Virus record (IMG/VR): IMGVR_UViG_3300045996_000667
Coordinates: 1-27,545 of that record
DNA from: a virus
Strand: one strand, 5' to 3'
DNA length: 27,545 nt
Made by a program: the position numbers and the translations under genes. Within the stretch, counting starts at the first letter, position 1. The number at the start of each line of letters is the position of its first letter. The notes under the pieces were generated by a model. That model was not told the origin of the DNA, ran no database searches, and saw nothing but the letters and a program-made list of their open reading frames with translations. Positions 3,353-19,303 of this stretch are shown here, piece after piece.

Positions 3353-3360
3353 TGTGCTTT

Positions 3361-3447: not shown

Positions 3448-3461
3448 CCTAACGCGTTAGG
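3448..3461. repeat. 14-bp perfect palindrome after the tRNA
   Basis: CCTAACGCGTTAGG begins at the base after the tRNA CCA. It could be a short processing or termination hairpin, a protein site, or part of a crossover core. There is no T-run, so a simple intrinsic terminator is unlikely. Confidence 0.5.
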
Positions 3462-3514
3462 GCAACGAATGAGCAAACAACAGATACCATTGTGCAAGGG
3501 CGGCTGGCAACAGA

Positions 3515-3751: not shown

Positions 3752-3771
3752 CACTGACACACGTAACACAC

Positions 3772-4331: not shown

Positions 4332-4518
4332 TAGGTCTGAGGAGTTCTTTCAGGCTCTTGAGTCGCGCTGGATGCTCTACTGCTTTGGGGTCTGCCGTAA
4401 ACAGCGGCAGCACGTATCTAAAGACGTGGTCCAAGGTACCCACACGATGAAATGCCTCACATGCGGCTACCTAGAAGAATGGCATGAGGATGTCCTCTGT
4501 GCAGACTACCAAATCTGA
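4321..4518 (+). CDS. EFF-tag protein 10
   Basis: 65 residues. Tag SEEFFQAL (6-13). The first pair is CFGVC (21-25, Cx3C), the second CLTCG (45-49), with one additional Cys near the end. The Cx3C spacing is shared with the preceding member, hinting that the two arose by duplication. Confidence 0.8.
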   Translation: MPSDRSEEFFQALESRWMLYCFGVCRKQRQHVSKDVVQGTHTMKCLTCGYLEEWHEDVLCADYQI

Positions 4519-4708
4519 GGAGTTCTTCCAGGCGCTGTCAAAGATGGCAACCTTGTACTGCGATGGGTGCAATTGCGCAACGGCATGGCGTTACCTCGGC
4601 CCAGAACCTGTCTACAAGCATGTAGGCTGGATAGAAGCCGAATGCACACGGTGCAACGCTGTAGCTCCTTGGCTTGACGTCACCTTTGACCGCAATGGCA
4701 TATCCTGA
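4490..4708 (+). CDS. EFF-tag zinc-ribbon protein 11
   Basis: 72 residues from the second of several possible starts (ATG; an upstream ATG and a downstream GTG are alternatives). Tag SEEFFQAL (9-16), CDGC (24-27) plus Cys29, CTRC (52-55). The stop codon of the previous gene lies inside this tag. Confidence 0.78.
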   Translation: MSSVQTTKSEEFFQALSKMATLYCDGCNCATAWRYLGPEPVYKHVGWIEAECTRCNAVAPWLDVTFDRNGIS

Positions 4709-4913
4709 CGACTTCTTCGAGGCGCTGAACATCCTGAACGGCCTGACAGAACGCTGTCAGGAATGCGGGCGCGCTATCAGCGAGGACGAATTCAGAGTGA
4801 ACTGGCAAAGCTGCGAGCTCTGCTTGGACGCCGCCATCGAAGAGTACTACCTAGCAGAAGCTGCCAAGGCTGAGAGGGAATATGAGCAACTCAAAGAGTT
4901 TGGGCAGATCTAA
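4695..4913 (+). CDS. EFF-tag zinc-knuckle protein 12 with helical tail
   Basis: 72 residues. The tag is divergent at DNA level, PDDFFEAL (4-11). CQECG (21-25) and CELC (40-43) are only 15 residues apart, the tightest pair in the array. A charged Ala/Glu-rich tail (about 44-72) should form a long helix and could make a coiled coil. The start overlaps the previous stop. Confidence 0.8.
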   Translation: MAYPDDFFEALNILNGLTERCQECGRAISEDEFRVNWQSCELCLDAAIEEYYLAEAAKAEREYEQLKEFGQI

Positions 4914-5109
4914 AGAGTTCTTTCAGGCGCTAAGACCGATGGCCCTGCTGTCGTCATCTTTCCACCCATGCGGAGATTCCGTATATGGGCGCTCAAAGAT
5001 GATTATCACAGACGAGAGAGACGACCGGTACACATACTGCGTTTGCCCACAGTGCGGCTACAAGGACGGATGGTACCATGACACTGTCGAGAAGAACCTG
5101 TGCCAGTAG
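4882..5109 (+). CDS. EFF-tag protein 13, reduced first zinc pair
   Basis: 75 residues. Tag SKEFFQAL (10-17). The first site has only His-Pro-Cys (28-30) and the second is CVCPQCG (53-59), so ligands may be H28/C30/C55/C58. The upstream stop TAA is embedded in the Ser-Lys codons of the tag. Confidence 0.76.
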   Translation: MSNSKSLGRSKEFFQALRPMALLSSSFHPCGDSVYGRSKMIITDERDDRYTYCVCPQCGYKDGWYHDTVEKNLCQ

Positions 5110-5294
5110 ACAAGGCTGAAGAGTTCTTCCAGGCGCTATCAACGTTGGCGAGACTAAACTGCCCTTACTGCGGGCCGCAACGCACCGTAGCTAAGCTGGA
5201 ACCACACGATGCAGCCACGACAGTAGGACAATGCATGTCTTGTCGAAAAACATCTATCTGGTTTAACTATTCTTGGGATCGCTTTGCCCTCTAA
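5100..5294 (+). CDS. EFF-tag zinc-ribbon protein 14
   Basis: 64 residues from GTG. Tag AEEFFQAL (6-13), CPYCG (21-25), CMSC (45-48). A compact member close to the family average. The tail is aromatic (WFNYSW). Confidence 0.8.
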   Translation: MPVDKAEEFFQALSTLARLNCPYCGPQRTVAKLEPHDAATTVGQCMSCRKTSIWFNYSWDRFAL

Positions 5295-5523
5295 AGCCGA
5301 AGAGTTCTTCCAGGCGCTGGACATGATCTGGGCCGACTGCGATCGGTGCAACCCTAAGACAAGGCGAGAAGGAAGCCACACCTGGTTGAGCGTAATAGGT
5401 TGGTACGCAAATGCGATGTGGGCTAAGACTGAGTGCCAGACATGCGGCAACATCGTATGGCACAGCGCCGGCTACATCGAAGCTCGCAAAAATGAACAAC
5501 CTCGAGGTCGGGTAAGGGCATGA
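5284..5523 (+). CDS. EFF-tag zinc-ribbon protein 15
   Basis: 79 residues from a TTG start forced by frame and tag position. Tag AEEFFQAL (5-12), CDRC (19-22), CQTCG (51-55); Trp-rich centre and a basic end. The upstream stop TAA lies in the codons just before the tag. Confidence 0.78.
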   Translation: MPSKAEEFFQALDMIWADCDRCNPKTRREGSHTWLSVIGWYANAMWAKTECQTCGNIVWHSAGYIEARKNEQPRGRVRA

Positions 5524-5654
5524 TCAATCTCCTAATATTCCTGCTCAGGTTCTACGACGTTCTACTCGTTGGACTGGCAGGCTCGTTCATTCTGGCCGTC
5601 ATCTGGTCGGCAGCCTCATGGCTGGCAGGACTGATAACTTATGTCCAAGACTGA
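5520..5654 (+). CDS. Small membrane protein
   Basis: 44 residues, ATGA overlap with the preceding gene. Two hydrophobic stretches (about 3-8 with 14-22, and 23-41) suggest one long or two short membrane segments; no signal-peptidase site is evident. It is the only untagged membrane gene inside the array. Its stop is embedded in the tag codons of the next gene, so it occupies a normal cassette slot. Possible holin-like or membrane-stress role, unproven. Confidence 0.6.
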   Translation: MINLLIFLLRFYDVLLVGLAGSFILAVIWSAASWLAGLITYVQD

Positions 5655-5880
5655 AGAGTTCTTCGAGGCGCTGTCAATGCGGTTCAGTGGTGCTCACGGC
5701 CAGTGCGCGCCAACACTAGCAGAATCTGGCGGCGTTATCTGGACTGTCGACATGGCCAGCTATCAGGCTGTCAAGCATGAATTACTTGACAACGTACTAG
5801 TCAAGTGCTCTCGCTGCAAGCGATGGTGCCGCACAACAAAATCTTACGTCGATGATAGACTCAGCACACATGCAGTCTGA
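5641..5880 (+). CDS. EFF-tag zinc-ribbon protein 16 (GAH subfamily)
   Basis: 79 residues. Tag TEEFFEAL (4-11). The first half-site is GAHGQC (His19, Cys22) and the second CSRC (56-59). The body, with W-x2-D-x3-SY-x2-V in the middle and K-x4-D near the end, is shared with the gene at 7785, so these two are true paralogues beyond the tag. Confidence 0.82.
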   Translation: MSKTEEFFEALSMRFSGAHGQCAPTLAESGGVIWTVDMASYQAVKHELLDNVLVKCSRCKRWCRTTKSYVDDRLSTHAV

Positions 5881-6157
5881 AGAGTTCTTCGCAGCCCTGA
5901 CAGGCACCATGTGCGGCATCTGTTATGCCCCGATAGTGCCTACCGAGAAGCCGTTGGGTGGCAAAGGCTACTACTTCGTATACGTCTGGGACCACGATTT
6001 CATCCCTCCGAACTGTAAGAAGGACGAGGATTCCTATTGTCAACTCCCGATGTGTCCAGGCTGCTATGGCTCGTGGGGAATGACCTCGGCAGGAAATATA
6101 AGATCTTGGGAACTGTGGGTAGTCTCAAGGAGGAAAGAACTTGGCCTCAAAGGCTGA
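5870..6157 (+). CDS. EFF-tag zinc protein 17 (long form)
   Basis: 95 residues from the ATG next to the tag; an ATG 18 bases upstream is possible. Tag SEEFFAAL (3-10), CGIC (15-18), Cys49, Cys57, CPGC (62-65). The 43-residue insert between the CxxC pairs is Tyr/Gly/Asp-rich and the tail is basic. The larger spacing suggests a different zinc fold or a binding loop. Confidence 0.78.
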   Translation: MQSEEFFAALTGTMCGICYAPIVPTEKPLGGKGYYFVYVWDHDFIPPNCKKDEDSYCQLPMCPGCYGSWGMTSAGNIRSWELWVVSRRKELGLKG

Positions 6158-6371
6158 AGAATTCTTCGAGGCTTTGCACACTGTGCAATCGACGTCCACT
6201 TGTCCATCCTGCAAGGCCACAGAAATGGCTAGGCCATACAGGCATATCACTGGACAATGCGCCTGGGAGTTATTCTGCCAGTGCGGCGAGAGTTTTCAGT
6301 CATCTCCTCGGGGAACATACTACAAAGACCTAAAAGCCATAGGCCACAGGCTACCAGACGATCATGACTGA
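6141..6371 (+). CDS. EFF-tag zinc-ribbon protein 18
   Basis: 76 residues from TTG, supported by a strong AAGGAGG ribosome site seven bases upstream, one of the few in the array. Tag AEEFFEAL (5-12), CPSC (21-24), Cys40 and CQCG (46-49). Confidence 0.8.
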   Translation: MASKAEEFFEALHTVQSTSTCPSCKATEMARPYRHITGQCAWELFCQCGESFQSSPRGTYYKDLKAIGHRLPDDHD

Positions 6372-6564
6372 CAAGTCTCGAGAGTTCTTCAAGGCTATCG
6401 GCGTTGTCGTGCTTGAACTGGAATGCCCATCGTGCGACTCTGAACAACTACATGACTGCGAGCCGCTTCCCGAAGGCGTCTGGGCAGTGATCTGTCAACA
6501 ATGCGGCAATGACTGGAAGAGCTACTACATAGCCCAGAAGAAGTACGATGAAGTATCGCTGTGA
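6364..6564 (+). CDS. EFF-tag zinc-ribbon protein 19
   Basis: 66 residues. Tag SREFFKAI (5-12), the most basic version. CPSC (21-24), CQQCG (44-48). The P-LPEGVWAVICQQCGNDW segment resembles the C-terminal half of the genes at 8008 and 8589 (F/VW-x-A-x-C-x2-CG-x-x-W), a shared ribbon subtype. Confidence 0.8.
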   Translation: MTDKSREFFKAIGVVVLELECPSCDSEQLHDCEPLPEGVWAVICQQCGNDWKSYYIAQKKYDEVSL

Positions 6565-6706
6565 GAACGGACAGCTCGTGCCAGATCCTGACGGCGATTG
6601 GATAAGGACTGAGATTACTATCGCCACTGGCACAGCTATCAGGCCGCCAGGACTCGACGGACAGAGGATTGTCGTATGGACGCTAAAGAGTTCTGGGACT
6701 CACTGA
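6548..6706 (+). CDS. Small hypothetical protein without tag
   Basis: 52 residues with ATG start, overlapping both neighbours (17 and 31 bases). No EFF tag, no CxxC and no membrane segment; the content is Asp/Thr/Ile-rich. It fills a gap that would otherwise be about 110 bases, so it may be real or chance. Confidence 0.4.
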   Translation: MKYRCENGQLVPDPDGDWIRTEITIATGTAIRPPGLDGQRIVVWTLKSSGTH

Positions 6707-6903
6707 TACCGCCCACCATCGAGCTGGCGATGTGTGGATGTAGCAGTCCCAGCAAGCCTGCCGAGTGTGTGCCAGTCAGGCAAGAGATGGTATGGTTCTG
6801 GAGGGCGACGTGCAAGAGCTGCGGCTGGGAGTACGACTGCCAGCCCGGTGGCGGCTACGCACAAAGGCTGGCTAGAGATGGATACATCCTCCCTAACGAC
6901 TGA
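6676..6903 (+). CDS. EFF-tag zinc-ribbon protein 20 (EFW variant)
   Basis: 75 residues. Tag AKEFWDSL (3-10). CGC (20-22), Cys31 and CKSCG (46-50). Aromatic MVWFW precedes the second knuckle. Its stop TGA lies in the Thr-Glu tag codons of the next gene. Confidence 0.78.
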   Translation: MDAKEFWDSLIPPTIELAMCGCSSPSKPAECVPVRQEMVWFWRATCKSCGWEYDCQPGGGYAQRLARDGYILPND

Positions 6904-7183
6904 AGAATTCTTCGAAGCTGTAGGTGTTGTCAGGTGCATAGCCTGCAGTCAGTTCACCAATAACGGCAAAAGCATGTGCTACGGCTGCTTTATTCCCTTT
7001 ATGCCCTACGAGCGGCTGTTAGAGCTGAAAGAGCGACGAGATGCCTCTTTCTATGCGGCCCCTGACCTCCGATACCGATACTTTCCAGTGCCGTCGACAG
7101 ACCCAACGCCGGCGCGCCCAGAAGCTGACGGACTCGAGAACGCGAGCACGGAACACCCCACCGCATCAGGCGGCCATGATTGA
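6878..7183 (+). CDS. EFF-tag zinc protein 21 with antisense-overlapping tail
   Basis: 101 residues. Tag TEEFFEAV (8-15), CIAC (20-23), CYGC (34-37). About the last 60 residues (Pro/Ala/Glu-rich, no cysteines) are encoded opposite the 3' end of the minus-strand methyltransferase. The family-like core ends about where the overlap begins, so the tail is probably read-through created when the methyltransferase cassette arrived and replaced the original 3' end. Confidence 0.65.
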   Translation: MDTSSLTTEEFFEAVGVVRCIACSQFTNNGKSMCYGCFIPFMPYERLLELKERRDASFYAAPDLRYRYFPVPSTDPTPARPEADGLENASTEHPTASGGHD

Positions 7184-7727
7184 CAGCGTACCTAATGTTC
7201 ACCAGAGGGAAATGACGGCCCAGCAACTCTCGCAGCTGCTCGGTCCTGTAATGCCTCTTATGGTCATGGTAGGGACGTGTCAGGAAATCACCGTTTGGCG
7301 TCGTCATCAGGAACCTGCCGCCAGGCCTCAGCACGCGGGCGACATTCGCCACGAAGGCCTCGTCAGCCTCCACGTGCTCCAACACCTCCACCGCCACCAC
7401 CACGTCGAACGACCGCGCCGGCAGCCGCGTATCGGTCATGTCGTCAATGACGTAGTCGTAGACGTTCGTTCTGGAGGCGATGACCTGCCGACGAATGGCC
7501 TCCGTCGCCCCAAGGTCCAGCCGCTCCTGCAGCTCGGACTGGCGAGGAATGTCGGAGATGATCACCCGACTGCGCAGGCCGATGGTATACTGGCTGCGGC
7601 GACCGCCGACGTCCAGGATTCGCAGAGGGCCGTCTGCCTCCATCTCTCGCAGCATCCTCGAAACACGCCAGTACAGCGGGTGCTCGACAGGGCGAACCAC
7701 ACGGCGCAACGTCTCGTATCGCGTCAT
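6999..7727 (-). CDS. Class I SAM-dependent methyltransferase
   Basis: 242 residues. Motif I is LRILDVGGRRSQYT (about 35-48), a glycine loop that binds S-adenosylmethionine; later FDVVVAVEVLEHV and LRPGGRFLMTTPNGDF match motifs IV-VI of the Methyltransf_11/25 type, and HDHKRHYR resembles small-molecule or lipid methyltransferases. The substrate is unknown; no DNA-methyltransferase DPPY-type motif is seen. It is the only non-integrase minus-strand gene, is G+C-richer than the array and overlaps its convergent neighbour by 185 bases, so it looks like a recent insertion. Confidence 0.85.
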   Translation of the reverse strand: MTRYETLRRVVRPVEHPLYWRVSRMLREMEADGPLRILDVGGRRSQYTIGLRSRVIISDIPRQSELQERLDLGATEAIRRQVIASRTNVYDYVIDDMTDTRLPARSFDVVVAVEVLEHVEADEAFVANVARVLRPGGRFLMTTPNGDFLTRPYHDHKRHYRTEQLRELLGRHFPLVNIRYAVNHGRLMRWGVPCSRSRVRQLLGAPALGLSTALESIGIGGQGPHRKRHLVALSALTAARRA

Positions 7728-7784
7728 AGCTCTAGCATATGCCGATTTTGGCTACCTGACAACACTTACTAGTGTATTCCTTTC

Positions 7785-8021
7785 ATGTCAACATCTGAGG
7801 AGTTCTTTCACGCGCTCGCTCCGTCCGTTATAGGTGCGCACGACGCCTGTCAGGGCAGCTTCGAACATCGCGTGTTCTGGATTATCGACACTGTCAGCTA
7901 TCATGACGTCAGGGATGGACAAGCCATGCTGACCTGCAGCAATTGTGGCCAGCAGGTATGGGCCGCCAAGGCTTGGATCAACGATAAGCTGGACCGAACA
8001 ACGCGACATGACCAATTCTGA
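7785..8021 (+). CDS. EFF-tag zinc-ribbon protein 22 (GAH subfamily)
   Basis: 78 residues. Tag SEEFFHAL (4-11), GAHDAC (His19, Cys22), CSNCG (51-55). Shares W-x2-D-x-x-SY-x2-V and the K-x4-D-x-L ending with the gene at 5641. First gene after the methyltransferase, with a 57-base divergent gap that must hold any promoter; a small ACACT-tact-AGTGT dyad lies there. Confidence 0.82.
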   Translation: MSTSEEFFHALAPSVIGAHDACQGSFEHRVFWIIDTVSYHDVRDGQAMLTCSNCGQQVWAAKAWINDKLDRTTRHDQF

Positions 8022-8211
8022 GGAGTTCTTCCAGGCCCTGACACCGACTACTATGGCTGTCTGCGATAACGACCGCTCGTGCGGCACCACCTTGCACGCC
8101 TGCACGCCACTTCCCGATTCCTTTTGGGAGGCTAGGTGCCTAAAATGCGGGGCTATGTGGGTCAGCAGCCTTGTCATTCATGAGGCGCTCCTAGAGGAGG
8201 GCAAGATTTGA
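8008..8211 (+). CDS. EFF-tag zinc-ribbon protein 23
   Basis: 67 residues. Tag SEEFFQAL (4-11); first cysteines CDNDRSC (19-25, Cx5C), second CLKCG (44-48). The upstream stop is inside the tag codons; its own stop overlaps the TTG of the next gene. Confidence 0.8.
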   Translation: MTNSEEFFQALTPTTMAVCDNDRSCGTTLHACTPLPDSFWEARCLKCGAMWVSSLVIHEALLEEGKI

Positions 8212-8381
8212 CAAAATCTGAGGAATTCTTTCAGGCGCTCACAGGCCCGGTAGTCGAAGCATCATGCCACCACTGCCAGGTTAACAGAATGTTCGTTTGC
8301 ACACATGTTCTAGGACCGCAATGGGAAGCGACCTGCCAAGTGTGCGGTAACGTTATCGCCTTCAGTGTTACTGATGACTAA
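8208..8381 (+). CDS. EFF-tag zinc-ribbon protein 24 (recent triplet, copy 1)
   Basis: 57 residues from TTG. Tag SEEFFQAL (4-11), then TGPVVEA, CHHC (20-23), FVCTHV, W-x-ATCQVCGNV (43-49). Nearly the same plan as the gene at 8589, showing recent duplication; the tail after the second knuckle is shorter. It ends GATGACTAA, the same bases that end the gene at 8468. Confidence 0.8.
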   Translation: MTKSEEFFQALTGPVVEASCHHCQVNRMFVCTHVLGPQWEATCQVCGNVIAFSVTDD

Positions 8382-8400
8382 ATCTGAGGAATTCTTTCAG
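8373..8400 (+). repeat. Direct repeat at duplicated tag junction
   Basis: GATGACTAAATCTGAGGAATTCTTYCAG occurs here and again at 8588-8615, with one base difference. It spans the end of one cassette and the tag of the next and marks the likely crossover DNA of the triplication. Confidence 0.7.
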
Positions 8401-8463
8401 GCGATCACAGGTCCAGTAGTCGAGGCTCACTGCACCGGCTGCCTGCCACGCAGAAGGGATTGA
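8374..8463 (+). pseudogene. Truncated EFF-tag gene (recent triplet, copy 2)
   Basis: 29 codons. Tag SEEFFQAI, TGPVVEAHC and CTGC match the flanking copies closely, then the frame runs into LPRRRD and a stop. The second half of the ribbon is missing, replaced by an unrelated small frame. Probably a broken copy, though a 29-residue tag-only peptide could still be made and could compete with full members. Confidence 0.65.
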
Positions 8464-8467
8464 GCGA

Positions 8468-8596
8468 ATGACTGAATGCGAGCCGGGATACCACGAATGG
8501 GAGTCCGGCGCCGGGTGGGGGACCATCATCGGCGTCAGTCGCTGTAAGCGTTGCGGTCGAGTGTCCCGCGCGTCTGATTTCTCCGGCGATGACTAA
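8468..8596 (+). CDS. Small zinc-ribbon fragment without tag
   Basis: 42 residues. HEW plus SRCKRCGR gives Cys4, His9 and a CxxCG pair, a ribbon-like set, but no EFF tag. It sits where the second half of the truncated copy should be and ends GATGACTAA like the first copy, so it came in as the body of another cassette. It may be an independent gene. Confidence 0.5.
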   Translation: MTECEPGYHEWESGAGWGTIIGVSRCKRCGRVSRASDFSGDD

Positions 8597-8789
8597 ATCT
8601 GAGGAATTCTTCCAGTCGCTAACAGGCCCAGTAGTCGTGGCGCACTGCATCGTCTGCGTCCAGATCGTCAAGTTCGTTTGCACACATGTGCAAGGCTCCA
8701 CATGGAGTGCTACCTGCCAGGACTGCGGCAACGTTTGGGAAAGCTTCTTCACAATCGAGCGTAAATTGATAAAGTCAGGTCAGATTTGA
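8589..8789 (+). CDS. EFF-tag zinc-ribbon protein 26 (recent triplet, copy 3; array end)
   Basis: 66 residues. Tag SEEFFQSL (4-11), CIVC (20-23), FVCTHV, CQDCG (43-47), then a basic/aromatic tail ending GQI. Last gene of the array. Closest relative is the gene at 8208. Confidence 0.82.
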   Translation: MTKSEEFFQSLTGPVVVAHCIVCVQIVKFVCTHVQGSTWSATCQDCGNVWESFFTIERKLIKSGQI

Positions 8790-9640: not shown

Positions 9641-9979
9641 ATGCGTAACACTACCTCTAGCCGTCTTGTGTCACGTGGCAAGGTTCGCAAGGTGGCTCAG
9701 CCTGCCGTCCCTGCCGTTGATCCTGCCGTTCTGGCCGCACTCGGCAATCCTGCCGTTCTGGCAGGGCTGATACAGGCTCTGCAAGGTGGCAAGGTGGCTC
9801 AGCCTGCCGTCCCTGTCCAGCCTGCTACGCTCAGCCTGCCGATCAATGGCAAGCCTGTTTCCCTGTCAGTTGACGGGCGCAAGGCAGACGGGAGCGTCCG
9901 GCGATACAAGGGATCCGTTATCACTTCGATCAACGGTGCTCAGTTCACGGTCTACCTCAGCGCATACGCTCAGAAGTAG
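9641..9979 (+). CDS. Basic Pro/Ala-linker protein, paralogue of the 11724 product
   Basis: 112 residues with ribosome site CAGGAG. Basic N-terminus (1-17), an Ala/Pro/Val segment containing KVAQPAVP twice (17-24 and 51-58; a 25-bp direct DNA repeat at 9689 and 9791), then a beta-rich C-terminal domain (62-112) ending FTVYLSAYAQK. Spacing and ending match the gene at 11724 (L-x-L...TL-x-F...G-x4-V...F-x3-Y-x-K). An abundant DNA- or virion-associated protein is possible. Confidence 0.72.
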   Translation: MRNTTSSRLVSRGKVRKVAQPAVPAVDPAVLAALGNPAVLAGLIQALQGGKVAQPAVPVQPATLSLPINGKPVSLSVDGRKADGSVRRYKGSVITSINGAQFTVYLSAYAQK

Positions 9980-9995
9980 TCGGCAGGCACTAGCA

Positions 9996-10023
9996 GACTA
10001 GCAGGGTATCGGCCCTGCTAGTC
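9996..10023 (+). terminator. Strong hairpin after the 9641 gene
   Basis: GACTAGCAGGG pairs perfectly with CCCTGCTAGTC (11 bp) around a 6-base loop, 17 bases past the stop codon. No U-tract follows, so it may be a processing or stability element, or the first helix of the structured region, rather than a true terminator. Confidence 0.5.
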
Positions 10024-11013
10024 TCTAGCAGAGCCTATCACGGCATGCGCCTTGATCGGTTCTGTTAGAGACTACCAAGTCTCTAGCTCTTTACATACCG
10101 CGTAACAGCGCTGTAGGTTCGGGCGATTCGCCCACTATGGCCAACAATGCGGACTAGACTCAGGTGGCAGACAGTGACGCTATTGTCACTGCCGATACCG
10201 CTAGAGAAGCAAAAGACCGTAGAGTCTAACGTAGGCACGGCGAGTGCAATCACATAGACCACGGCGAGTGCATTAAGACCACGTCGCGCAGTGAAGCGCT
10301 TTAGGTGGCATGCACGGTAGCATCCTAGCAATTGCCCAGCAGATTGCGGTTTTAGCGTGTTTAGCCGTTCGTTAGTGGCCTAGCATGCCGTGACAGTAAT
10401 ACGTCCTAGGACGTCCCGCTAATCGTGCCGCATAGGTTATCCGTTGGCGGTATCTGCCGACTAAGTAGCATCCTGCCTGCCTGCCTTTAATGGCCACCTG
10501 AGTCTAGTCTGTATTGGCGCGAATGACAGTGTATGGTCGTCCCTGCTAGCACGTGGCAACGTCTAGCAGGCACCGTTAGTGCTGTTACTGTGCTGGCATA
10601 GCCTGAAAGACTACAGGCTAGCACTCAGGCAGGGTAAGCACTAGCACGCTATACGCCTACAGGACTGTCTAATACTGCCATTCCAATAGAGGGGATAGAT
10701 CCGACTAACCTGTAACGGACCTATCGCCGGCCCCACCACAACCAGGCCTGCCCCGCGACTTCATCAGTCGACCGAAGTGGACCAAGGGAGTAGTGTGTGC
10801 CGACGTATGCCCCTAGCCGGATGCAATATATCCTGCCCAACCGCGCATAGGATGCGAGCCTTCCATAGGCCATGATCCCTATACGCGCCTAGCCCCTGCC
10901 TTCTAACCGCTAGGCTTGCAGGACAATCTGGCGTCAACCATGCACGTTCAATAGTAGGTGGTTGACAAAGGCAGCGGGTTTAACCTCGAGTTAAACCGGC
11001 GAGCTGCGGGAAG

Positions 11014-11103
11014 TAGAGAGGGAGGAAACGGGACCGAAACAGCCCAAGCGGGGCATGGCTTAACCATGCCTGTCAAGTAAGCTGCTAGTAGGTCCCCTCT
11101 CTA
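11014..11103 (+). ncRNA. Nested four-helix RNA element
   Basis: The closing stem TAGAGAGGG/CCCTCTCTA (9 bp, 11014-11022 with 11095-11103) encloses GACC/GGTC (11032-11035 with 11091-11094), CAGC/GCTG (11040-11043 with 11081-11084) and a terminal hairpin GGCATGG-cttaa-CCATGCC (11052-11070). All helices nest in order. It lies about 90 bases before the ribosome site of the 11196 gene, so a leader or regulatory role is possible. Confidence 0.5.
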
Positions 11104-11195
11104 TAGAACGGGTCTGCTATACCTGGCCAAACCGCTGAAAGGCTAGGGAACCGCTCTATAGGGAGCATCTTAACCGCCCTAACTGGAGGAAACCA

Positions 11196-11324
11196 ATGTC
11201 TATCAAGACCTATGAGTGCCCAACCTGCCACGCCTTCGAGTTCAACTACATCCGCCCGCACTACTGCAGCAACTGCGGCCGCAAGGGCAAGCTGCGCCGC
11301 ATCATCGGCTGGTTCATCGGCTAG
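11196..11324 (+). CDS. Tiny zinc-ribbon protein without tag
   Basis: 42 residues with an excellent GGAGG ribosome site. CPTC (9-12) and CSNCG (26-30), then a basic GRKGKLRRIIGWFIG tail that could lie along a membrane or bind nucleic acid. This is the bare ribbon plan of the EFF proteins without the N-terminal tag. Confidence 0.7.
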   Translation: MSIKTYECPTCHAFEFNYIRPHYCSNCGRKGKLRRIIGWFIG

Positions 11325-11327
11325 GCC

Positions 11328-11441
11328 ATGCTGAGACTGTTCGCCTACGCATCCTGGGCTGCCGTGATGGCGCTGTTCGTCTACATCACAGTAGTCCCTA
11401 TCCTTAACCACGTTGTCACTGTTCTGGGGAACCTGCGATAA
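11328..11441 (+). CDS. Tiny single-span membrane protein
   Basis: 37 residues, almost entirely one hydrophobic helix (about 3-32), starting three bases after the preceding stop. Its last base is shared with the next start codon (TAATG). Function unknown; size and topology suit a phage membrane effector. Confidence 0.6.
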   Translation: MLRLFAYASWAAVMALFVYITVVPILNHVVTVLGNLR

Positions 11442-11593
11442 TGCTGACACTGCTGCTCGTCCTTGCCCGTAACGACGTCGTCCGACTGGCCAGCCCCGAG
11501 ACGCAGTGGTGGCTGTTAGGGCTGGTCGCAATCGAGCTGTTCACCGAAATCGTCGGCTACGCCCATTGGGTCGAATATCGGCTCAACCGCTAG
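11441..11593 (+). CDS. Small membrane protein
   Basis: 50 residues. A short hydrophobic start (MLTLLLVLA), a polar middle, then a second hydrophobic stretch (about 22-37) and a basic end. Coupled by TAATG to the membrane gene before it. A holin/spanin-like pair is one possibility, without direct support. Confidence 0.58.
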   Translation: MLTLLLVLARNDVVRLASPETQWWLLGLVAIELFTEIVGYAHWVEYRLNR

Positions 11594-11605
11594 CATCCAA
11601 GTAAT

Positions 11606-11622
11606 ACACAAGCATTTTGTGA
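11606..11622. promoter_or_regulatory. Operator-like dyad ACACAA-N5-TTGTGA (copy 3)
   Basis: Matches copy 2 at 18 of 22 surrounding positions and lies about 100 bases before the 11724 gene, the paralogue of the gene downstream of copy 2. Right half-site has one change (A for T). Confidence 0.55.
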
Positions 11623-11723
11623 ACGCTGCTGTGTGGGTCATGGCTGTCATGACCTACGCAAGAGCGCTCGTAAGACTGCGAGTGCCTACTAGGCAATACC
11701 GCCTAGCCGGACAGGAGGACACT

Positions 11724-12146
11724 ATGTTCGCCAACACCACCGCCGCCACCCGCGCCCGCAAGCAGGCTTTCATCGCCAAGGTTGCCGCCCGCAAGCAGGC
11801 CAAGACCGCCAACCGCCACACCACGCGCACCGCGAGCCGCAAGGCCCAGCCCGCCACCGCCGCGCCCGCCGTCAACCCGCAGGCTGCGTTCATCCAGGCC
11901 CTCGCCGCCGCGCTCGGCCAGACCCCCATGGCCGCTGCCCTGCTCAAGGCCAACGGCGGCACCAACGTCGGCACCGTGGGCAACCCGACGCCGCAGCTCA
12001 ACACCGCGCCCATCACCCTGAACCTCGGTGACCTCGGCACCCACACGCTGACCTTCGCCCGCGAGTCCAAGGGCCACAAGGCCGTCCACGAGCTGGTGCT
12101 GGAGGACGAGAACAGCAAGTTCTTCATCAGCCGCTACTCCAAGTAA
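11724..12146 (+). CDS. Basic Ala/Pro-linker protein, paralogue of the 9641 product
   Basis: 140 residues from the ATG behind ACAGGAGGACACT. The first 42 residues are highly basic and Thr/Ala-rich, followed by an Ala-rich helical segment (47-76), a Gly/Asn/Thr linker and a beta-rich C-terminal domain (95-140) ending FFISRYSK. It parallels the 9641 protein in order and ending. Codons are strongly C-ending, unlike the EFF array, hinting at high expression. Confidence 0.75.
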   Translation: MFANTTAATRARKQAFIAKVAARKQAKTANRHTTRTASRKAQPATAAPAVNPQAAFIQALAAALGQTPMAAALLKANGGTNVGTVGNPTPQLNTAPITLNLGDLGTHTLTFARESKGHKAVHELVLEDENSKFFISRYSK

Positions 12147-12159
12147 CCGCTACCCACAT

Positions 12160-12200
12160 GGACAGGGCTGGCCCTATGGCTAGTCCTGTCCAACCTCGCA
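12160..12200 (+). repeat. Conserved hairpin repeat, copy 1
   Basis: GGACAGGGCT and AGTCCTGTCC form a 10-bp stem (one G.U) around a 12-base loop, followed by AACCTCGCA. The same unit recurs at 14401, where the G.U is a G-C pair. It lies just past the stop of the 11724 gene and before the ribosome site of the next small gene. Confidence 0.7.
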
Positions 12201-12237
12201 ACAAGGCCAGTGACAGTGGCTTTGTTAGGAGGTCGTC

Positions 12238-12312
12238 ATGGGTCAACTGATAGACGAGCTCATCGTCGTGATCGCTCTCGGCAACTCTCACCCGACCGTC
12301 AACAAGCGTTAA
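12238..12312 (+). CDS. 24-residue leader-like peptide
   Basis: Starts behind TTAGGAGGTCGTC, a strong ribosome site. Hydrophobic core LIDELIVVIALG and a polar end. It lies between the hairpin repeat and the 12340 gene, so it may be a leader peptide or a minute protein in its own right. Confidence 0.5.
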   Translation: MGQLIDELIVVIALGNSHPTVNKR

Positions 12313-12339
12313 CCCTCACAACCTGACAGGAGAATGACC

Positions 12340-12726
12340 ATGCTTACCGCATCTCAGTGGAACCGTGTCCGCGCAACCGAAGCCGCCCTCGTCATCGTCA
12401 GCACCAACGCTGGCCAGAACATCATCAACCCCGTGCGCCGCGTCATGCCGAACGCCACCGCCAAGACCATCAGCAACCCGCAGGGCATGAGGATGACCGT
12501 GCGGCCGGCGCTCATCGAGAACCCGCTGCTGACCCTGTCCAACCCGCACAGCAGCTCGGCCACCATCGACAACGCCATCAGGATCGCATCTGGTGGTATC
12601 CGTCTGGTCAAGGGCGGCCGCAACTGGACCGACCCGCGCTACGTGGAATGCACCCGCTACGTCCCCATGGGCGTCACGTTCGGGGACTGCGTCCGTCAGC
12701 GCGAAGCCCTCAAGGCCAGCGAATGA
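12340..12726 (+). CDS. Hypothetical protein
   Basis: 128 residues. The second of two nearby ATGs is chosen because the CAGGAG site is seven bases before it and only one base before the first. Mixed alpha/beta composition with NPVRRVMPN, MRMTVRPALIENPLLTLSNP and late Cys in VECTRY and GDC. No family recognised. The last codons overlap the next ATG. Confidence 0.7.
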   Translation: MLTASQWNRVRATEAALVIVSTNAGQNIINPVRRVMPNATAKTISNPQGMRMTVRPALIENPLLTLSNPHSSSATIDNAIRIASGGIRLVKGGRNWTDPRYVECTRYVPMGVTFGDCVRQREALKASE

Positions 12727-12815
12727 GGGCCTACCTGCTTGACCTGCTCGATCGTCTGGTAAGATCCCTGCCATCGGCGTTGGACGCGGCAATCATAGCC
12801 GCGCTCGACGCCTAG
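12723..12815 (+). CDS. 30-residue helical peptide
   Basis: ATGA overlap with the previous gene. An amphipathic Leu/Asp/Ala sequence (LLDLLDRLVRSL) that should form one helix. Real-looking through its coupling and the ribosome site that follows it; function unknown. Confidence 0.5.
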   Translation: MRAYLLDLLDRLVRSLPSALDAAIIAALDA

Positions 12816-12827
12816 GAGGCACCCTGA

Positions 12828-13133
12828 ATGGACATCTGCCCTAGCAGAGACGACGCCCAACCTCACATCTTCGAGGGCGGGCGTTGTGCCCTCTGCCTCA
12901 CACCGCTGCCACAAAACGAACGCTGGATCGCACGCTACGGCTACTCTGTCGGTGGCACGAAGCACGATTTCAACTGGTTCTGGATTCGTGACGAATATAC
13001 GCCCAACGAGAAGGGCAACGCGGAGCGTTTCAATAGCGCAGCAGCTGCAAAGGCAGCGGCCCGCGAGGCCGTAACCAACGCCAGCGCAATACAGCCACAC
13101 CTGCAATGGCGCACGGCCGTGGAACGAGCATGA
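12828..13133 (+). CDS. Small zinc-knuckle protein
   Basis: 101 residues behind a CTAGGAGG site. Cys4, then CALC (20-23), an aromatic beta section (FNWFWIRDEY) and an Ala/Lys-rich helix. Only one clear CxxC, so a single incomplete zinc site. Stop overlaps the next ATG. Confidence 0.68.
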   Translation: MDICPSRDDAQPHIFEGGRCALCLTPLPQNERWIARYGYSVGGTKHDFNWFWIRDEYTPNEKGNAERFNSAAAAKAAAREAVTNASAIQPHLQWRTAVERA

Positions 13134-13351
13134 ACGCTGGAATGCTAGTCACTCGTCGTCAACTGCTGGCCCTTTATGAGGCTTGGCAAAAGGCTGGCAA
13201 CAAGGTTCCAACCAAGAAGTTGTCGTTCATCGGCCTCAAGTTCCCAGAAGGGTCAGACTTCTACGACGTCAACATCGAGTATACCGAACACAAGTCGCCC
13301 TATGGAAACCGCCTCTATAGGGTCACATTCCTGAACCCATGCCGACAATGA
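13130..13351 (+). CDS. Hypothetical protein
   Basis: 73 residues from the ATGA overlap. An N-terminal helix (RRQLLALYEAWQKAG) then beta strands with YTEHKSPYGNRLYRVTF. No known family recognised. Confidence 0.65.
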   Translation: MNAGMLVTRRQLLALYEAWQKAGNKVPTKKLSFIGLKFPEGSDFYDVNIEYTEHKSPYGNRLYRVTFLNPCRQ

Positions 13352-13536
13352 GAAGGCTTGAGTGTTGCTGCTGTGGAGGCCTCGCCTTAGCGGTGAAACA
13401 CTGGTGGAACCGCGACACGGGCTTTGGCCTCTGCGGGAAATGCGCCAACATGATCAAGGCGCGCAAGGACTACGACCCCGAAGAATTCACCCAGAACTAC
13501 GGACACGAAGGAGTCCACTGGATACCTGAACCATGA
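13339..13536 (+). CDS. Small zinc-ribbon protein (CCCC...CGKC)
   Basis: 65 residues; the ATG nine bases downstream makes an ATGA overlap and is an equally good start. CCCCGG (9-14) and CGKC (32-35) frame a short ribbon, followed by YDPEEFTQNYGHEG. The PEEF is only a loose echo of the EFF tag and is not counted as one. Confidence 0.68.
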   Translation: MPTMRRLECCCCGGLALAVKHWWNRDTGFGLCGKCANMIKARKDYDPEEFTQNYGHEGVHWIPEP

Positions 13537-13718
13537 ATGACGTCAAACGGATACAGGAGATAATCGACCGCTTCATCCCGCTCGGCAATCGTTCCTCCAT
13601 GTGTCACAGCTTCATCGTGCCAATGGAGGACTGTTCACGGTGCAAAGACGCCATCGAAATCAGAGAGCTGGTGGCTAAACTGGCAAAGGATAGCCATGCC
13701 AACCCTGAGAACCGCTAG
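13533..13718 (+). CDS. Small hypothetical protein with CSRC
   Basis: 61 residues, ATGA overlap. Cys24-His25 and CSRC (34-37) could bind one zinc between two helices (VKRIQEIIDRF and AIEIRELVAKLAKD). Function unknown. Confidence 0.65.
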   Translation: MNDVKRIQEIIDRFIPLGNRSSMCHSFIVPMEDCSRCKDAIEIRELVAKLAKDSHANPENR

Positions 13719-13947
13719 CACCCTGTCACCCGGCGAGTTCGTTGAGATGCTCGCCGCCAATCAGCCCAACGGCCTTGGCAGCGTGGTCAGCGTCGACATG
13801 AAGGCGCGGCGCGTCACCTGTCGGACCACGGACAGCCATGCCGCTCATGCGGTGGAACTGCTGGCCAACCGGAAAGGCCTGAAAGTCCTGACCACGCGGC
13901 CAGACGATGGCAGCTATGTCATCGGGGTCACGGGCTTCAAGGCCTGA
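13696..13947 (+). CDS. Hypothetical protein with EFV motif
   Basis: 83 residues. Contains PGEFVEMLAANQ near residues 12-23, loosely like the EFFDALAAND of the L7/L12-like fusion, then a beta-alpha-beta body. No cysteine pair. Whether the motif is related to the tag is uncertain. Confidence 0.65.
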   Translation: MPTLRTASTLSPGEFVEMLAANQPNGLGSVVSVDMKARRVTCRTTDSHAAHAVELLANRKGLKVLTTRPDDGSYVIGVTGFKA

Positions 13948-13957
13948 AGGATTCGCC

Positions 13958-14392
13958 GTGAAAGCTCCATTACACTATAAGCCTGCCGGACTAGTGTTAC
14001 CGCTTTGCTGCGCGATGTATGAACTGTCCACTGATGAGCTACCTATGGCTACCTGCCCAGAGTGCGTTGCGCTGGCGGCAGTACCTCTATGGTGCGCCCG
14101 TGGACATCAGTACAACGGCACCATAGAAAAGGACAAGTGTCCACAATGCGGCTTGCACGGACACACCAACAAGGCAGACGCAAACGCCGAAGCCTTCGAT
14201 CTATTTCACATGCGAACACCGCACGTCATCCACTGGCGCAGCATTCGGCTGTTCAACAACGCTGGCATGGACTTTCCGGCCTGCTATGCGTCGACCAAAC
14301 TGCTAGACCTCGACAAGTCGAGGCTGCGCACCAATCCTGAGCGGCACGCAGTAACCTGCAAGAGGTGTCTGCGGCTCATGGAGAAGCGCTAG
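13958..14392 (+). CDS. Three-knuckle zinc protein
   Basis: 144 residues from a GTG preceded by GAAGGA; a further upstream ATG would overlap the gene before. CPEC (33-36), CPQCG (61-65) and CKRC (134-137), with a central helical part. The C-terminal RHAVTCKRCLRLMEKR is typical of small phage zinc proteins. DNA or RNA binding is likely but unproven. Confidence 0.7.
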   Translation: MKAPLHYKPAGLVLPLCCAMYELSTDELPMATCPECVALAAVPLWCARGHQYNGTIEKDKCPQCGLHGHTNKADANAEAFDLFHMRTPHVIHWRSIRLFNNAGMDFPACYASTKLLDLDKSRLRTNPERHAVTCKRCLRLMEKR

Positions 14393-14418
14393 ACAAAACC
14401 GGACAGGGCTGGTAGAAT
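14390..14418 (+). promoter_or_regulatory. Putative promoter overlapping the hairpin repeat
   Basis: TAGACA (one mismatch to TTGACA), a 17-base spacer, then TAGAAT (one mismatch to TATAAT). The -10 lies in the loop of hairpin copy 2, so the inverted repeat flanks the -10 as an operator would. The best sigma-70 match I found in the window. Confidence 0.6.
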
Positions 14419-14441
14419 GGCTAGCCCTGTCCAACCTCGCA
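14401..14441 (+). repeat. Conserved hairpin repeat, copy 2
   Basis: GGACAGGGCT pairs perfectly with AGCCCTGTCC across a 12-base loop, followed by AACCTCGCA. It differs from copy 1 by a compensated stem base and by loop changes, so the fold or symmetry is under selection. Confidence 0.7.
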
Positions 14442-14450
14442 GTCAGGGCC

Positions 14451-14462
14451 ATACACGTGTAT
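14451..14462. promoter_or_regulatory. 12-bp palindrome ATACACGTGTAT
   Basis: Perfect palindrome downstream of the promoter and hairpin and before the ribosome site of the 14493 gene. The half-site ATACAC is shared with the ACACAA dyads, but the spacing differs. Confidence 0.45.
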
Positions 14463-14492
14463 TCTGTTGACCTTGACTAGGAGGTTTGTCTG

Positions 14493-14708
14493 GTGGAGCA
14501 CGAATATCCCAAGGAACGACGAAGTCCAGCACAACTGGCCGACGAGGAACACTGGACCGTGGTTGAGGTCCGACTCAACGAAGACCGCGAGAAACTGACC
14601 ATCGTTAACAGTTTCTCAGGTCAGGAGGTCGCAGAAAGCTACGTGCGCCGCATTCGCAAATACAGCCCTGACATCGTCAGCGTCAAGGCTCTTCCACCGA
14701 AAGGGTAG
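14493..14708 (+). CDS. Hypothetical protein
   Basis: 71 residues from GTG behind CTAGGAGG. Charged, with VVEVRLNEDREKLTIVNSF and an RRIRKYSPDIVSVKAL end, a beta-alpha-beta pattern. First gene of a long coupled run. No family recognised. Confidence 0.68.
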   Translation: MEHEYPKERRSPAQLADEEHWTVVEVRLNEDREKLTIVNSFSGQEVAESYVRRIRKYSPDIVSVKALPPKG

Positions 14709-14710
14709 CC

Positions 14711-14836
14711 ATGTTCCGCGAACTATGGTGGTGGATAAGAGGCGTCGAGCCTGCCACCTACCGACACGTCTGCAAACGCTGCGGCCAGACCGGTCAGGCT
14801 CACTGGTTCAACGTGTGTTGGAGGTTCAAAGAATGA
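14711..14836 (+). CDS. Tiny CxxC protein
   Basis: 41 residues. WWWIRG near the start and CKRCG (22-26), with a lone late Cys; half a zinc ribbon. Ends with an ATGA overlap to the next gene. Short phage CKRCG proteins of this shape are common; role unknown. Confidence 0.6.
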   Translation: MFRELWWWIRGVEPATYRHVCKRCGQTGQAHWFNVCWRFKE

Positions 14837-15030
14837 ACGAGAAAGACAAGCACATCATCACCATCGCACTGCAAGTCGCTATCACGTGCTACCAGGAAGA
14901 AGAGCGCCGCATGTGGCGCGCCGATGAGCTGGACAATTCCGACGTCTTCAAGCGCGTGGCCGAACAGTTCGCACGGCAGGCCAAAGAGGCGCAGGAACTG
15001 CTAGACCGCATCGCGAATGACAGGTTCTAG
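14833..15030 (+). CDS. Small all-helical protein
   Basis: 65 residues. Charged helices throughout (EEERRMWRADELDNSDVFKRVAEQ), a likely coiled coil or helical hairpin. ATGA coupling upstream. Confidence 0.65.
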   Translation: MNEKDKHIITIALQVAITCYQEEERRMWRADELDNSDVFKRVAEQFARQAKEAQELLDRIANDRF

Positions 15031-15031
15031 C

Positions 15032-15295
15032 ATGGACATCAAGACAGCCTTCAGGGTAGTCTCCGACGCCATAACCACACGAACAGACCTTTCCGAAATT
15101 GGCAGGCTGGCCATCGAGGACATGCTGGTCGAACTCCGAGACTGCAACATGTCTGTCTTACGGCATGGCGGCGGTAACAACGGCCTTGTCATCAGGGGAA
15201 AGGATGGAAGTTCGTCGTCTATTATTCGTATGAGTCCTGACCTGGCCGTCAGGATTGCCATCAATGCCATTCTTGAGCACTTGGAGAGATCCTAG
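15032..15295 (+). CDS. Hypothetical protein
   Basis: 87 residues from the ATG one base after the preceding stop; an in-frame ATG 15 bases upstream is possible. Helix, strand and helix pattern with a Gly/Ser loop (RGKDGSSSS). No family recognised. Confidence 0.65.
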   Translation: MDIKTAFRVVSDAITTRTDLSEIGRLAIEDMLVELRDCNMSVLRHGGGNNGLVIRGKDGSSSSIIRMSPDLAVRIAINAILEHLERS

Positions 15296-15296
15296 C

Positions 15297-15488
15297 ATGG
15301 ATCCCAACGCCAATCTGCAAGAACAGGAACGCATCATCGCTGAAAGGGAACTGCCAAACCCTGACTGGCGCGAATATGCTGAGCGCCTGCTCGACCTGCG
15401 GCAGGCCCTGTATGACTGGCTCAGGGACGGCGGCTTCGAACCGGACTGGTCCAAGGCTCCCAACGCGGCCAAGCATTACGGACACTGA
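15297..15488 (+). CDS. Small helical hypothetical protein
   Basis: 63 residues. QEQERIIAERELPNPDW then a helix LLDLRQALYDWLRDGGF and a polar end. One base separates it from the previous stop. Confidence 0.62.
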   Translation: MDPNANLQEQERIIAERELPNPDWREYAERLLDLRQALYDWLRDGGFEPDWSKAPNAAKHYGH

Positions 15489-15489
15489 C

Positions 15490-15687
15490 ATGGCCGATAT
15501 CTTTGGGGATTACATGGGCATGGACAGAGGCGAAGACCCAGACCACTATGAAGGCTGGCTCGCTGCTAAACGTGCCCACGCTGGCGGAATCAACATCACC
15601 ACTCACCGCTCTCAGGGCGACACTGAGTGGGACAAGGGCTGGAACGACTACATCGAAGAAATCGAAAGAGGGCTGATGTGTCCATAG
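15490..15687 (+). CDS. Small hypothetical protein
   Basis: 65 residues. DYMGMDRGEDPDHYEGW followed by DTEWDKGWNDYIEEIERG; acidic and Trp-rich. One base after the previous stop. No known family. Confidence 0.62.
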   Translation: MADIFGDYMGMDRGEDPDHYEGWLAAKRAHAGGINITTHRSQGDTEWDKGWNDYIEEIERGLMCP

Positions 15688-15950
15688 ACTATCTCGACAT
15701 TCAGATTCCAGGCGAGAAGATCAGCCACACCGACCTGACGGCAGACGCGCTGTTTTTCTCAGGGCGCACCACTGGCTGCTCATGTTGCTCGGACAGCTTC
15801 GACTTCAGCGAAACCTCCAAGGTGCAAGCCTTGGAACTGGCTGACCAGTGGATCAAGGAGCTGCGCGCACGGCTCAAGCAAGCCTGCGAGGTCAAGCGCA
15901 AGATTCGCGCGGTCAAGGTGGCAGACTGGGACAAGGCTAGGAGCACATGA
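15678..15950 (+). CDS. CSCC-containing hypothetical protein
   Basis: 90 residues from GTG, overlapping the upstream gene by ten bases. GCSCCSDS (33-40) gives three close cysteines, followed by a long charged helix. With only one cluster a classic ribbon is unlikely; a dimeric metal site or disulfide is possible. Confidence 0.62.
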   Translation: MSIDYLDIQIPGEKISHTDLTADALFFSGRTTGCSCCSDSFDFSETSKVQALELADQWIKELRARLKQACEVKRKIRAVKVADWDKARST

Positions 15951-16351
15951 ACTGGCTGACATTCCTCACCGCCCTGACAGAACAGGAGCGCGAAGAGCTC
16001 AAGGCCACCCTAGCCGACGCTGACAAGAATGCTGAGTTCTTTGATGCGCTGGCAGCCAATGATGCCCTGACCGCAGCTGAGCGCATCATTCGGCGGCGCG
16101 AGGGCAAGATACCGGCTATCAAGGCTGTCAGAGAGCGCACACGGCTAGGTCTGAAAGAAGCTAAGGACTTGGTCGAGCGCTGCGCACCTGACGACCTGTA
16201 CACCTTACCAGCCTGTCCTAAGTGTGGCTGCTGGAAAGAGCGCGTCAAGCCGGTAGCGCCATTGTCGCCAAATGAGTCACGGTATAACGGCAGGTTCCAT
16301 AAGTTTCATTGCCTGTCCTGTGACTGGATCTACGAGGCCAAGTACGTCTAG
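15947..16351 (+). CDS. Fusion: EFF motif, L7/L12-C-terminal-like helix pair, zinc ribbon
   Basis: 134 residues, ATGA start. The motif NAEFFDALAAND is internal (28-39). Residues 54-78 (KIPAIKAVRERTRLGLKEAKDLVER) follow the bacterial ribosomal protein L7/L12 C-terminal pattern KxxVIKxVRxxTGLGLKEAKDLVE, the surface that recruits translation GTPases. A ribbon CPKCG (90-94) and CLSC (122-125) ends the protein. The L7/L12 domain is partial (a helix-turn-helix core without the last strand). It may act at the ribosome or use the fold for another partner. Confidence 0.75.
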   Translation: MNWLTFLTALTEQEREELKATLADADKNAEFFDALAANDALTAAERIIRRREGKIPAIKAVRERTRLGLKEAKDLVERCAPDDLYTLPACPKCGCWKERVKPVAPLSPNESRYNGRFHKFHCLSCDWIYEAKYV

Positions 16352-17979: not shown

Positions 17980-18311
17980 CCACCTTCCTACTGCGAGGCA
18001 AGGGACAGAAACCAACAGCACCGCCCAGATACCAGCATGACTGTTCAGCCTGCCGATTCATTGGGCAGGTTGACAAGTACGACATCTGGTACTGCCCGCC
18101 GGTCAGCGCCTACAAGACTGGTCCAAGCCTGATTGCCCGCTACGGCAATGACGGGCTTGAATACTCCAGCGGCGAAGACTTCGAATACCGCCACATCATG
18201 GCTATCAGGTCGGAAATCGGTGGCCTGACTAACGACGAGGTTATCCTGCTGGCCACGTTCCGCATGATGCCAAGTCTGCTGCTCAACATCTGGAAACCGA
18301 GGGAGAACTAA
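17976..18311 (+). CDS. Phage hypothetical with HDCxxC motif
   Basis: 111 residues. YQHDCSACRFIGQ (19-31), DIWYC ending at Cys40, then LIARYGNDGLEYSSG. From memory this is a recurring phage protein; C23, C26, C40 and H21 could bind a metal. Function unknown. Confidence 0.75.
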   Translation: MTTFLLRGKGQKPTAPPRYQHDCSACRFIGQVDKYDIWYCPPVSAYKTGPSLIARYGNDGLEYSSGEDFEYRHIMAIRSEIGGLTNDEVILLATFRMMPSLLLNIWKPREN

Positions 18312-19303
18312 TGCGTCGTTCGTTCGCAGCAGCCGCGTTGGCTGCGCTGCTTTCGGCTGGCTGTGGCGACTCGCCCGTCGCCATAGTCGGCCCTACTACA
18401 CCCACGGCATCGACTCAGGAGCTGTCACCGAAGGCCTGCGCGTTCAACATGACCGTGCTCGAGGCGTCGGTTGACCGTGCCTATCTCAAGGTCAGGAACA
18501 ACGACATCTGCGAACGCAGAGCGGGAGTCGCCGTCTACAAGGCGATTGACCCGTTCCTGCCACTGACGCAGGACAATCAGGAGCTGTTCTCGGACGTCAA
18601 CGTAGTAGTTCAACCAGGCGCGACAGTCGAGATCACAGCTGAACTGCCGCCGCCGTGCGGTGAATATCAGTTTGACCCGTATCACACGATTGAATCCGTC
18701 GGCGCGAAGGGTTCCAAGCCCAACTTCGGGCAGGGCGAGAATCTGTTCGACATCAGCCAGTTCTCGTCTCACTACGGCGGAACGCGCTGCGTAGTGGTGC
18801 CACCGCCACCACCACCGCCGCCACCACCACCGCCGCCACCACCACCGCCACCGCCACCACCACCACCGCCGCCACCGCCGCCTCCACCTCCACCTCCACC
18901 GCCACCGCCACCGCCACCGCCGCCCGTGTGCCCAGTGGTAACCAAGGCGAACGTGGACAAGTACATCACTAGGCGCGACGTGAACTCGGTCAAGGACGGC
19001 GCGTATGCCGTATTCACGATCGAGCTACCGGCTGGCTGCGACATTCTGCTGTCGCTGGTCAGCTACAAGAAATACAGCTGCGAGAAGTTCCCGCAGAAGT
19101 TCATCGACGGCAAGTCTGGGCGTTACAAGTCAGGAACATACACGTGGGAGCTGCAAGTCACAAAGACCGACAGGCTCTATCAGGTGGACCTACTGGTAGG
19201 CGGGTTCAAGCCTGAGGACCTGACACAACAGAACCACGATAGCGACTACGGTCCACGAACCATCGACTGGATATCAGACTGGACGGGTTGCCCGTCAAAG
19301 TGA
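18311..19303 (+). CDS. Exported lipoprotein with 42-proline linker
   Basis: 330 residues. The N-terminus MRRSFAAAALAALLSAGC is a signal peptide ending at a near-lipobox Cys18, so lipidation and a cell-envelope location are likely. Domain one (about 40-160) has paired cysteines, then 42 uninterrupted prolines (164-205), then a second Cys-containing beta-rich domain (206-330). The rigid polyproline would hold the domains about 10 nm or more apart and needs elongation factor P to be made. It is probably a lysogenic-conversion or envelope-interaction protein. Domains not recognised. Confidence 0.8.
   Translation: MRRSFAAAALAALLSAGCGDSPVAIVGPTTPTASTQELSPKACAFNMTVLEASVDRAYLKVRNNDICERRAGVAVYKAIDPFLPLTQDNQELFSDVNVVVQPGATVEITAELPPPCGEYQFDPYHTIESVGAKGSKPNFGQGENLFDISQFSSHYGGTRCVVVPPPPPPPPPPPPPPPPPPPPPPPPPPPPPPPPPPPPPPPPPPVCPVVTKANVDKYITRRDVNSVKDGAYAVFTIELPAGCDILLSLVSYKKYSCEKFPQKFIDGKSGRYKSGTYTWELQVTKTDRLYQVDLLVGGFKPEDLTQQNHDSDYGPRTIDWISDWTGCPSK
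18800..18925 (+). repeat. (CCN)42 trinucleotide tract
   Basis: 126 bases of mixed CCA/CCG/CCT/CCC codons encoding proline. Partly regular (CCACCACCACCGCCG units), so prone to length change by slippage, always in steps of three that keep the frame. Confidence 0.9.

Follow-up and report, generated by a model that had tools for sequence, protein, structure and literature searches.

Two related intercistronic leaders in a phage genome that may mask the ribosome sites of the following cistrons

Introduction

Leaders that mask a Shine-Dalgarno (SD) sequence are a known type of control element, found among phage mRNA operators, translational riboswitches, and r-protein leaders. They place a local helix over the SD and have another structured region that could respond to a factor; the units described here are predicted to share these features. 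Lambda-type nut sites occur as two near-identical hairpins per phage. Phage HK022 has two put RNAs of ~70 nt (putL and putR) that are similar to each other and have two stem-loops each. A -10-like sequence is reported to be present in stem I of all aligned putLs and of no putRs, and was suggested to pause polymerase for folding (PMC9378689).

Here, we describe two leaders in a stretch of viral DNA, hereafter the window, that comprises bases 1-27545 of the 125,713-base virus record IMGVR_UViG_3300045996_000667. Like nut, the leaders are two near-identical hairpins in one phage, but boxA (GCTCTTTA-like) is absent at either of them, and its sole exact copy in the window is at 10086. Like putL and putR, they are two similar copies in one phage with two stem-loops each, and one kind has a -10-like sequence in stem I. 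They differ from put in their place in the genome and in having the SD within the second helix. We regard the likeness to put as resemblance only.

Results

Two 41-base units are present on the + strand at 12160-12200 (copy 1) and 14401-14441 (copy 2), where the original prediction had placed them, and they are identical at 36 of 41 bases. The repeat is not due to chance: the window contains two matches, and none of 100 dinucleotide shuffles reached two. Further copies elsewhere in the genome, on whose occurrence the original prediction had staked half of its case, were not found. A third copy was absent from the 125,713-base record when up to 3 mismatches were allowed, and a search of the record for the CCTCGCA..TAGGAGG frame gave no additional copy. 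Nor did a covariance model run on the whole record, whose other matches were weak and fell on the - strand of the leaders. A descriptor that combines the first hairpin (P1), a masked SD, and the second hairpin (P2) matched exactly copies 1 and 2 in the 125.7 kb record. Another record, IMGVR_UViG_3300042904_000085, is 100% identical to this DNA over the 11,741 bases compared; thus, we take it to be the same virus and to offer no independent evidence.

The copies are 2.2 kb apart, point in the same direction, and lie between genes of a co-directional cluster. Upstream of copy 1 an ORF stops at 12146, and downstream is a 24-codon ORF (MGQLIDELIVVIALGNSHPTVNKR, read from the sequence; 12238-12312, + strand) that ends 27 bases before the ATG at 12340. 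The latter begins a 128-aa orphan protein (12340-12726, + strand), the next cistron after copy 1. This start was picked by its spacing from an AGGAG; the start given by the ORF tool is 12334, and the ORF from 12334 had no Pfam or PHROG match. For copy 2, the upstream ORF stops at 14392, and the gene behind it encodes a 71-aa orphan protein with a GTG start (14493-14708, + strand) that also lacks a Pfam or PHROG match. The distance from upstream stop to P1 is 13 bases for copy 1 and 8 bases for copy 2, so both leaders are intercistronic. Comparison of two neighboring proteins with phages gave no relative, and among ten neighboring proteins scanned, none had a Pfam match that passed its cut-off or a PHROG match with E under 0.017. 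Structure models are poor for the 128-aa protein (mean pLDDT 35) and weak for the 71-aa protein (mean pLDDT 65, beta-beta-alpha-beta). Two small proteins encoded nearby, at 9641-9979 and 11724-12146, have Ala/Pro-rich parts that are weakly similar to each other (E 0.003 in a single comparison).

The two leaders are predicted to share one architecture. For copy 1, folding and alignment of the copies give a P1 of 14 pairs with a CTAT loop (12160-12191, + strand). It is followed by AACCTC (12192-12197, + strand), of which ACCTC is predicted by folding to pair with GAGGT at 12229-12233. Next come P2, with 10 pairs supported by folding and pair comparison (12200-12226, + strand), and the ribosome site AGGAGGT (12227-12233, + strand), which lies partly within the masking helix. 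In the predicted fold of copy 2, P1 has 13 pairs (14401-14432, + strand) with TAGAAT (14413-14418) on the loop side, and AACCTC (14433-14438, + strand) pairs with GAGGTT at 14481-14486. Here P2 has 8 outer pairs, again from folding and pair comparison (14441-14478, + strand), and AGGAGGT is at 14479-14485 (+ strand). The P2 strands (AACAAGGCCA and TGGCTTTGTT in copy 1, AGTCAGGG and CCTTGACT in copy 2) stand between the AACCTC and SD strands. Folding also suggests a possible outer stem, P0, in copy 2. Its 5' arm (14387-14396, + strand) shares bases with the upstream stop codon and with the "-35" of copy 2, and its partner (14486-14495) includes the GTG start. P0 is plausible for copy 2 only; the copy 1 version was lost in a longer fold.

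These folds revise the hairpin as originally described, a 10-bp stem with a 12-base loop and a trailing AACCTCGCA. The 10-bp stem is there, the trailing sequence is present in both units, and each unit does precede a strong ribosome site. The loop, however, is mostly paired: P1 closes to 14 or 13 pairs, so that the 12-base loop is really one of 4 or 6 bases. Within the tail, AACCTC serves as the pairing partner of the ribosome site. The stem position reported to be G.U in copy 1 and G-C in copy 2 is as described, but the change is one-sided and not compensatory. Two-sided changes sit instead in P2, a hairpin absent from the earlier description.

Comparison of the copies, a pair count from two sequences for which the P2 loop of copy 2 was shortened for alignment, shows that 26 of 26 aligned pairs form in both. 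In P1, 11 pairs are the same in the two copies and 2 differ on one side. In P2 and the SD helix together, 9 pairs are the same and 4 differ on both sides; the SD helix does not vary between the copies. All 4 of the doubly changed pairs are among the 8 shared P2 pairs, a pattern that covariation could produce, as seen in only two sequences of one virus. When the P2 partners were slid by 1-3 columns, 25-52% of cells remained paired, versus 100% unslid. A P2 stem equally long with its ends fixed arose in 8 (copy 1) and 115 (copy 2) of 200,000 shuffles. In a covariation shuffle control, which is weak with two rows, 25 of 500 shuffles reached the observed value. Given just two rows, in which four double pairs vary, shuffles must reach what was observed about 1 time in 16, so the count alone is not proof.

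The pair comparison also bears on a reading at the DNA level, in which a protein binds P1 as a palindromic site, or in which the unit arose as a small duplicated insert and has no function at present. In favor of such an element, P1 comes close to a perfect palindrome and the copies number just two. Yet it predicts neither the two-sided changes in P2 nor the SD pairing, and the G.U positions preserve the RNA stem and break the DNA palindrome. The flanks of the two copies are no more alike than shuffles (653 and 760 of 1000 shuffles as good). We consider the DNA-level reading very unlikely. Homology of the coding starts behind the copies (CAACTG...GACGAG) was considered separately and rejected, as 653 of 1000 shuffles were as good.

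Both leaders are among the most stable 90-base windows when both strands are compared. Folding yields z-scores of -7.1 and -7.3 for their + strands, lower than in any of 200 shuffles for each copy, and of -4.8 and -4.7 for the - strands. By the + strand folding advantage, copy 1 stands out with a rank of 37 among 3,923 windows, whereas copy 2, at rank 482, does not. In the predicted stable fold of both leaders the ribosome site is paired, with a computed AACCTC:SD pairing probability of 0.99-1.00 at four core pairs, and opening the SD would cost 8.9 and 9.4 kcal/mol. When opening cost is taken over a fixed interval from -14 to -4, these starts come first and third among 40 (45 were listed, and 5 with wrong coordinates were left out). 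Within a set of 100 SD-like sites from the record, copy 1 reaches only about the 90th percentile in opening cost, and the 15 highest do not include copy 2. Masked SDs accompanied by a P2 of 7 or more pairs are common when taken alone, and 5 shuffles of 47.5 kb contained 7. When transcripts are folded at growing lengths, the minimum-energy structures form P1, then P2, and the SD is captured on appearing. No alternative open structure was seen in folding. Between 10 and 50 C the modelled SD pairing stays level on average, which makes a simple thermometer unlikely.

P1 alone is predicted to be very stable, at -26.7 to -28.2 kcal/mol. This stability, and a position between co-directional genes 13 and 8 bases past the upstream stops, could befit a processing or stability element, in which the stack of P1 and P2 is cut by RNase III or halts decay and thereby parts the downstream from the upstream mRNA. 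The 13-14 pairs of P1 are few for an RNase III site. Such an element would also leave unexplained the exact complementarity of AACCTC to the SD and the contrast between P1, which is kept in sequence, and P2, which is kept in pairing. We therefore judge a processing role to be improbable.

The original prediction interpreted the repeated hairpin as a promoter-bearing boundary of transcription units. TAGACA-N17-TAGAAT is indeed found in copy 2, at 14390-14418, and transcription could on this account start near 14425. The site matches at 10 of 12 positions and has an extended -10 (TGGTAGAAT). Two such extended -10 sites occur in the window, compared with a mean of 0.15 in 40 mononucleotide shuffles; sites of this quality are rare, and the promoter reading thus deserves consideration. 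However, when the extended -10 requirement is dropped, the window has 2 sites versus 1.65 in shuffles, and promoter-like sites at 11-16 kb are at chance number (3, versus 1.5 +/- 1.1 in shuffles). The hexamers are present in copy 2 only, and copy 1 has CCCTAT at the place of the -10. Those of copy 2 coincide with other features, the -35 with the stop codon and the possible P0, and the -10 with the P1 loop. Moreover, a transcript that started at ~14425 would be without the 5' arm of P1. No T run that could indicate an intrinsic terminator follows either copy, and a search of the + strand from 11000 to 16000 detected no such terminator. We consider a promoter or transcription-unit boundary quite unlikely; what stands of the earlier interpretation is a structured unit, repeated before two ribosome sites.

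The TAGAAT of copy 2 can also be viewed in light of HK022, given that these are two similar two-hairpin RNAs of which only one has a -10-like sequence in the first hairpin. By analogy with put, the leaders could be antiterminators, two-hairpin RNAs that bind RNA polymerase and allow terminator read-through as putL and putR do. We find this highly doubtful. The copies have one direction, lie deep in a gene cluster, and are not visibly just past early promoters, and their second helix includes the SD, which put does not require. A model of the leader (R1) compared with 8 kb of HK022, in which the put sites were not located, had a best E of 0.98, at noise level.

Searches for relatives returned little beyond the virus itself. 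The exact P1 frame was found in viral contigs only in this virus, and a frame of the tail plus SD in two other stretches of viral contigs, neither with P1. A 15-base core occurs in 40 other stretches of viral contigs; GGACAG lies within 50 bases upstream in 0 of 40 and an SD-like site within 75 bases in 1 of 40, and model R1 found nothing on them. Genome contigs gave no matches to the P1 tail and two chance stretches with the SD frame. The covariance scan took in 28 of 40 terminase-related loci, Tunturiibacter phage Tunturi_4, one Ku-carrying record, and the virus's own record, and matched 0 of 29 records besides this virus and its twin contig. On 461,750 bases of related phage DNA, the descriptor gave 5 weaker matches, with 11-12 pairs in P1 and P2 versus 25 and 21 in the leaders. 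In blastn searches, copy 1 had no match in phages and copy 2 none in plasmids; copy 2 had 3 partial matches in phages with E of at least 0.3, which we take as chance. With Rfam, only a tRNA in the window reaches the gathering score, and the leaders give weak matches only. The nearest of these, che1 (RF02935), was rejected, as it scored 24.2 bits against a cut-off of 54.1 and matched copy 1 but not copy 2. In the literature on phage and Shine-Dalgarno masking we recognized no description of this element, which does not show that none exists. The terminase is 36% identical to that of Tunturi_4, a siphovirus with a host from the Acidobacteriota (PMC11924767). From this sequence likeness, the host of the present virus is probably also a member of the Acidobacteriota.

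Several other features of the window were recorded. The region at 9977-11195 comprises ~1.2 kb without a convincing gene, and is a candidate for a large structured RNA. It includes very stable tandem hairpins (~9985-10085), the most stable stretch of the window (top 90-base window near 9981, noncoding), the boxA-like GCTCTTTA noted above, and a 24-base long-range inverted repeat (10145-10168 / 10493-10516) with two imperfect positions that are G.U on the + strand. The region has no Rfam match and no phage blastn match. Within 132-8789 and elsewhere in the record are ~30 short ORFs with a shared N-terminal SEEFFxAL-like motif, in many cases followed by CxxC pairs; 12 ORFs of this type searched in viral contigs gave no confirmed relative. 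The gene at 24284-25147, which we take to encode a Ku-like protein, has a 28% identical relative in another viral contig. A presumed integrase-like gene (1922-3037, - strand) adjoins a tRNA-Leu (3361-3447, + strand), possibly an attachment site. The protein encoded at 18311-19303 has a lipoprotein-like start followed by a proline run of ~45 residues.

Discussion

Based on the modelled folds, we see about an even chance that each unit is an intercistronic leader of ~80-95 nt that acts in cis to control translation by hiding the SD of the next cistron. P1 would lie just past the upstream stop, AACCTC would hold the GAGGT of AGGAGGT, and P2 would bring these two strands together. In the closed state, the downstream cistron may be translated little until the helix is opened. 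A trans-acting factor, most simply a phage RNA-binding protein, could read P1 and the junction and set the helix open or closed. If the factor were shared, two separate cistrons would be switched together. We regard the element as an orphan variant of an already known control type, the SD-masking leader.

The SD-masking reading assigns different roles to the two hairpins. P2 needs only to pair, and its sequence has drifted for this reason. As P1 is kept in sequence and P2 in pairing only, recognition more likely involves P1 and the junction, with P1 as the probable recognition part. In copy 2 there may also be coupling to the upstream gene, since the predicted P0 would pair the end of that gene with the start codon.

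A more specific proposal, which we consider unlikely, is a phage RNA device of a new class, used twice, that combines a P1 read by sequence with a freely drifting P2 that clamps the SD. The two cistrons would then be set in step by one phage factor or by RNA polymerase, the latter in a put-like manner in which the TAGAAT of copy 2 causes a pause that depends on sigma.

If the SD-masking reading is right, these leaders would constitute a compact two-gene translational regulon in a phage that is probably a relative of Acidobacteriota viruses. The two copies would be a natural variant pair that separates the sequence-bound parts (P1 and the junction) from P2, which needs pairing only. This pair would then provide a direct handle for finding the binding factor.
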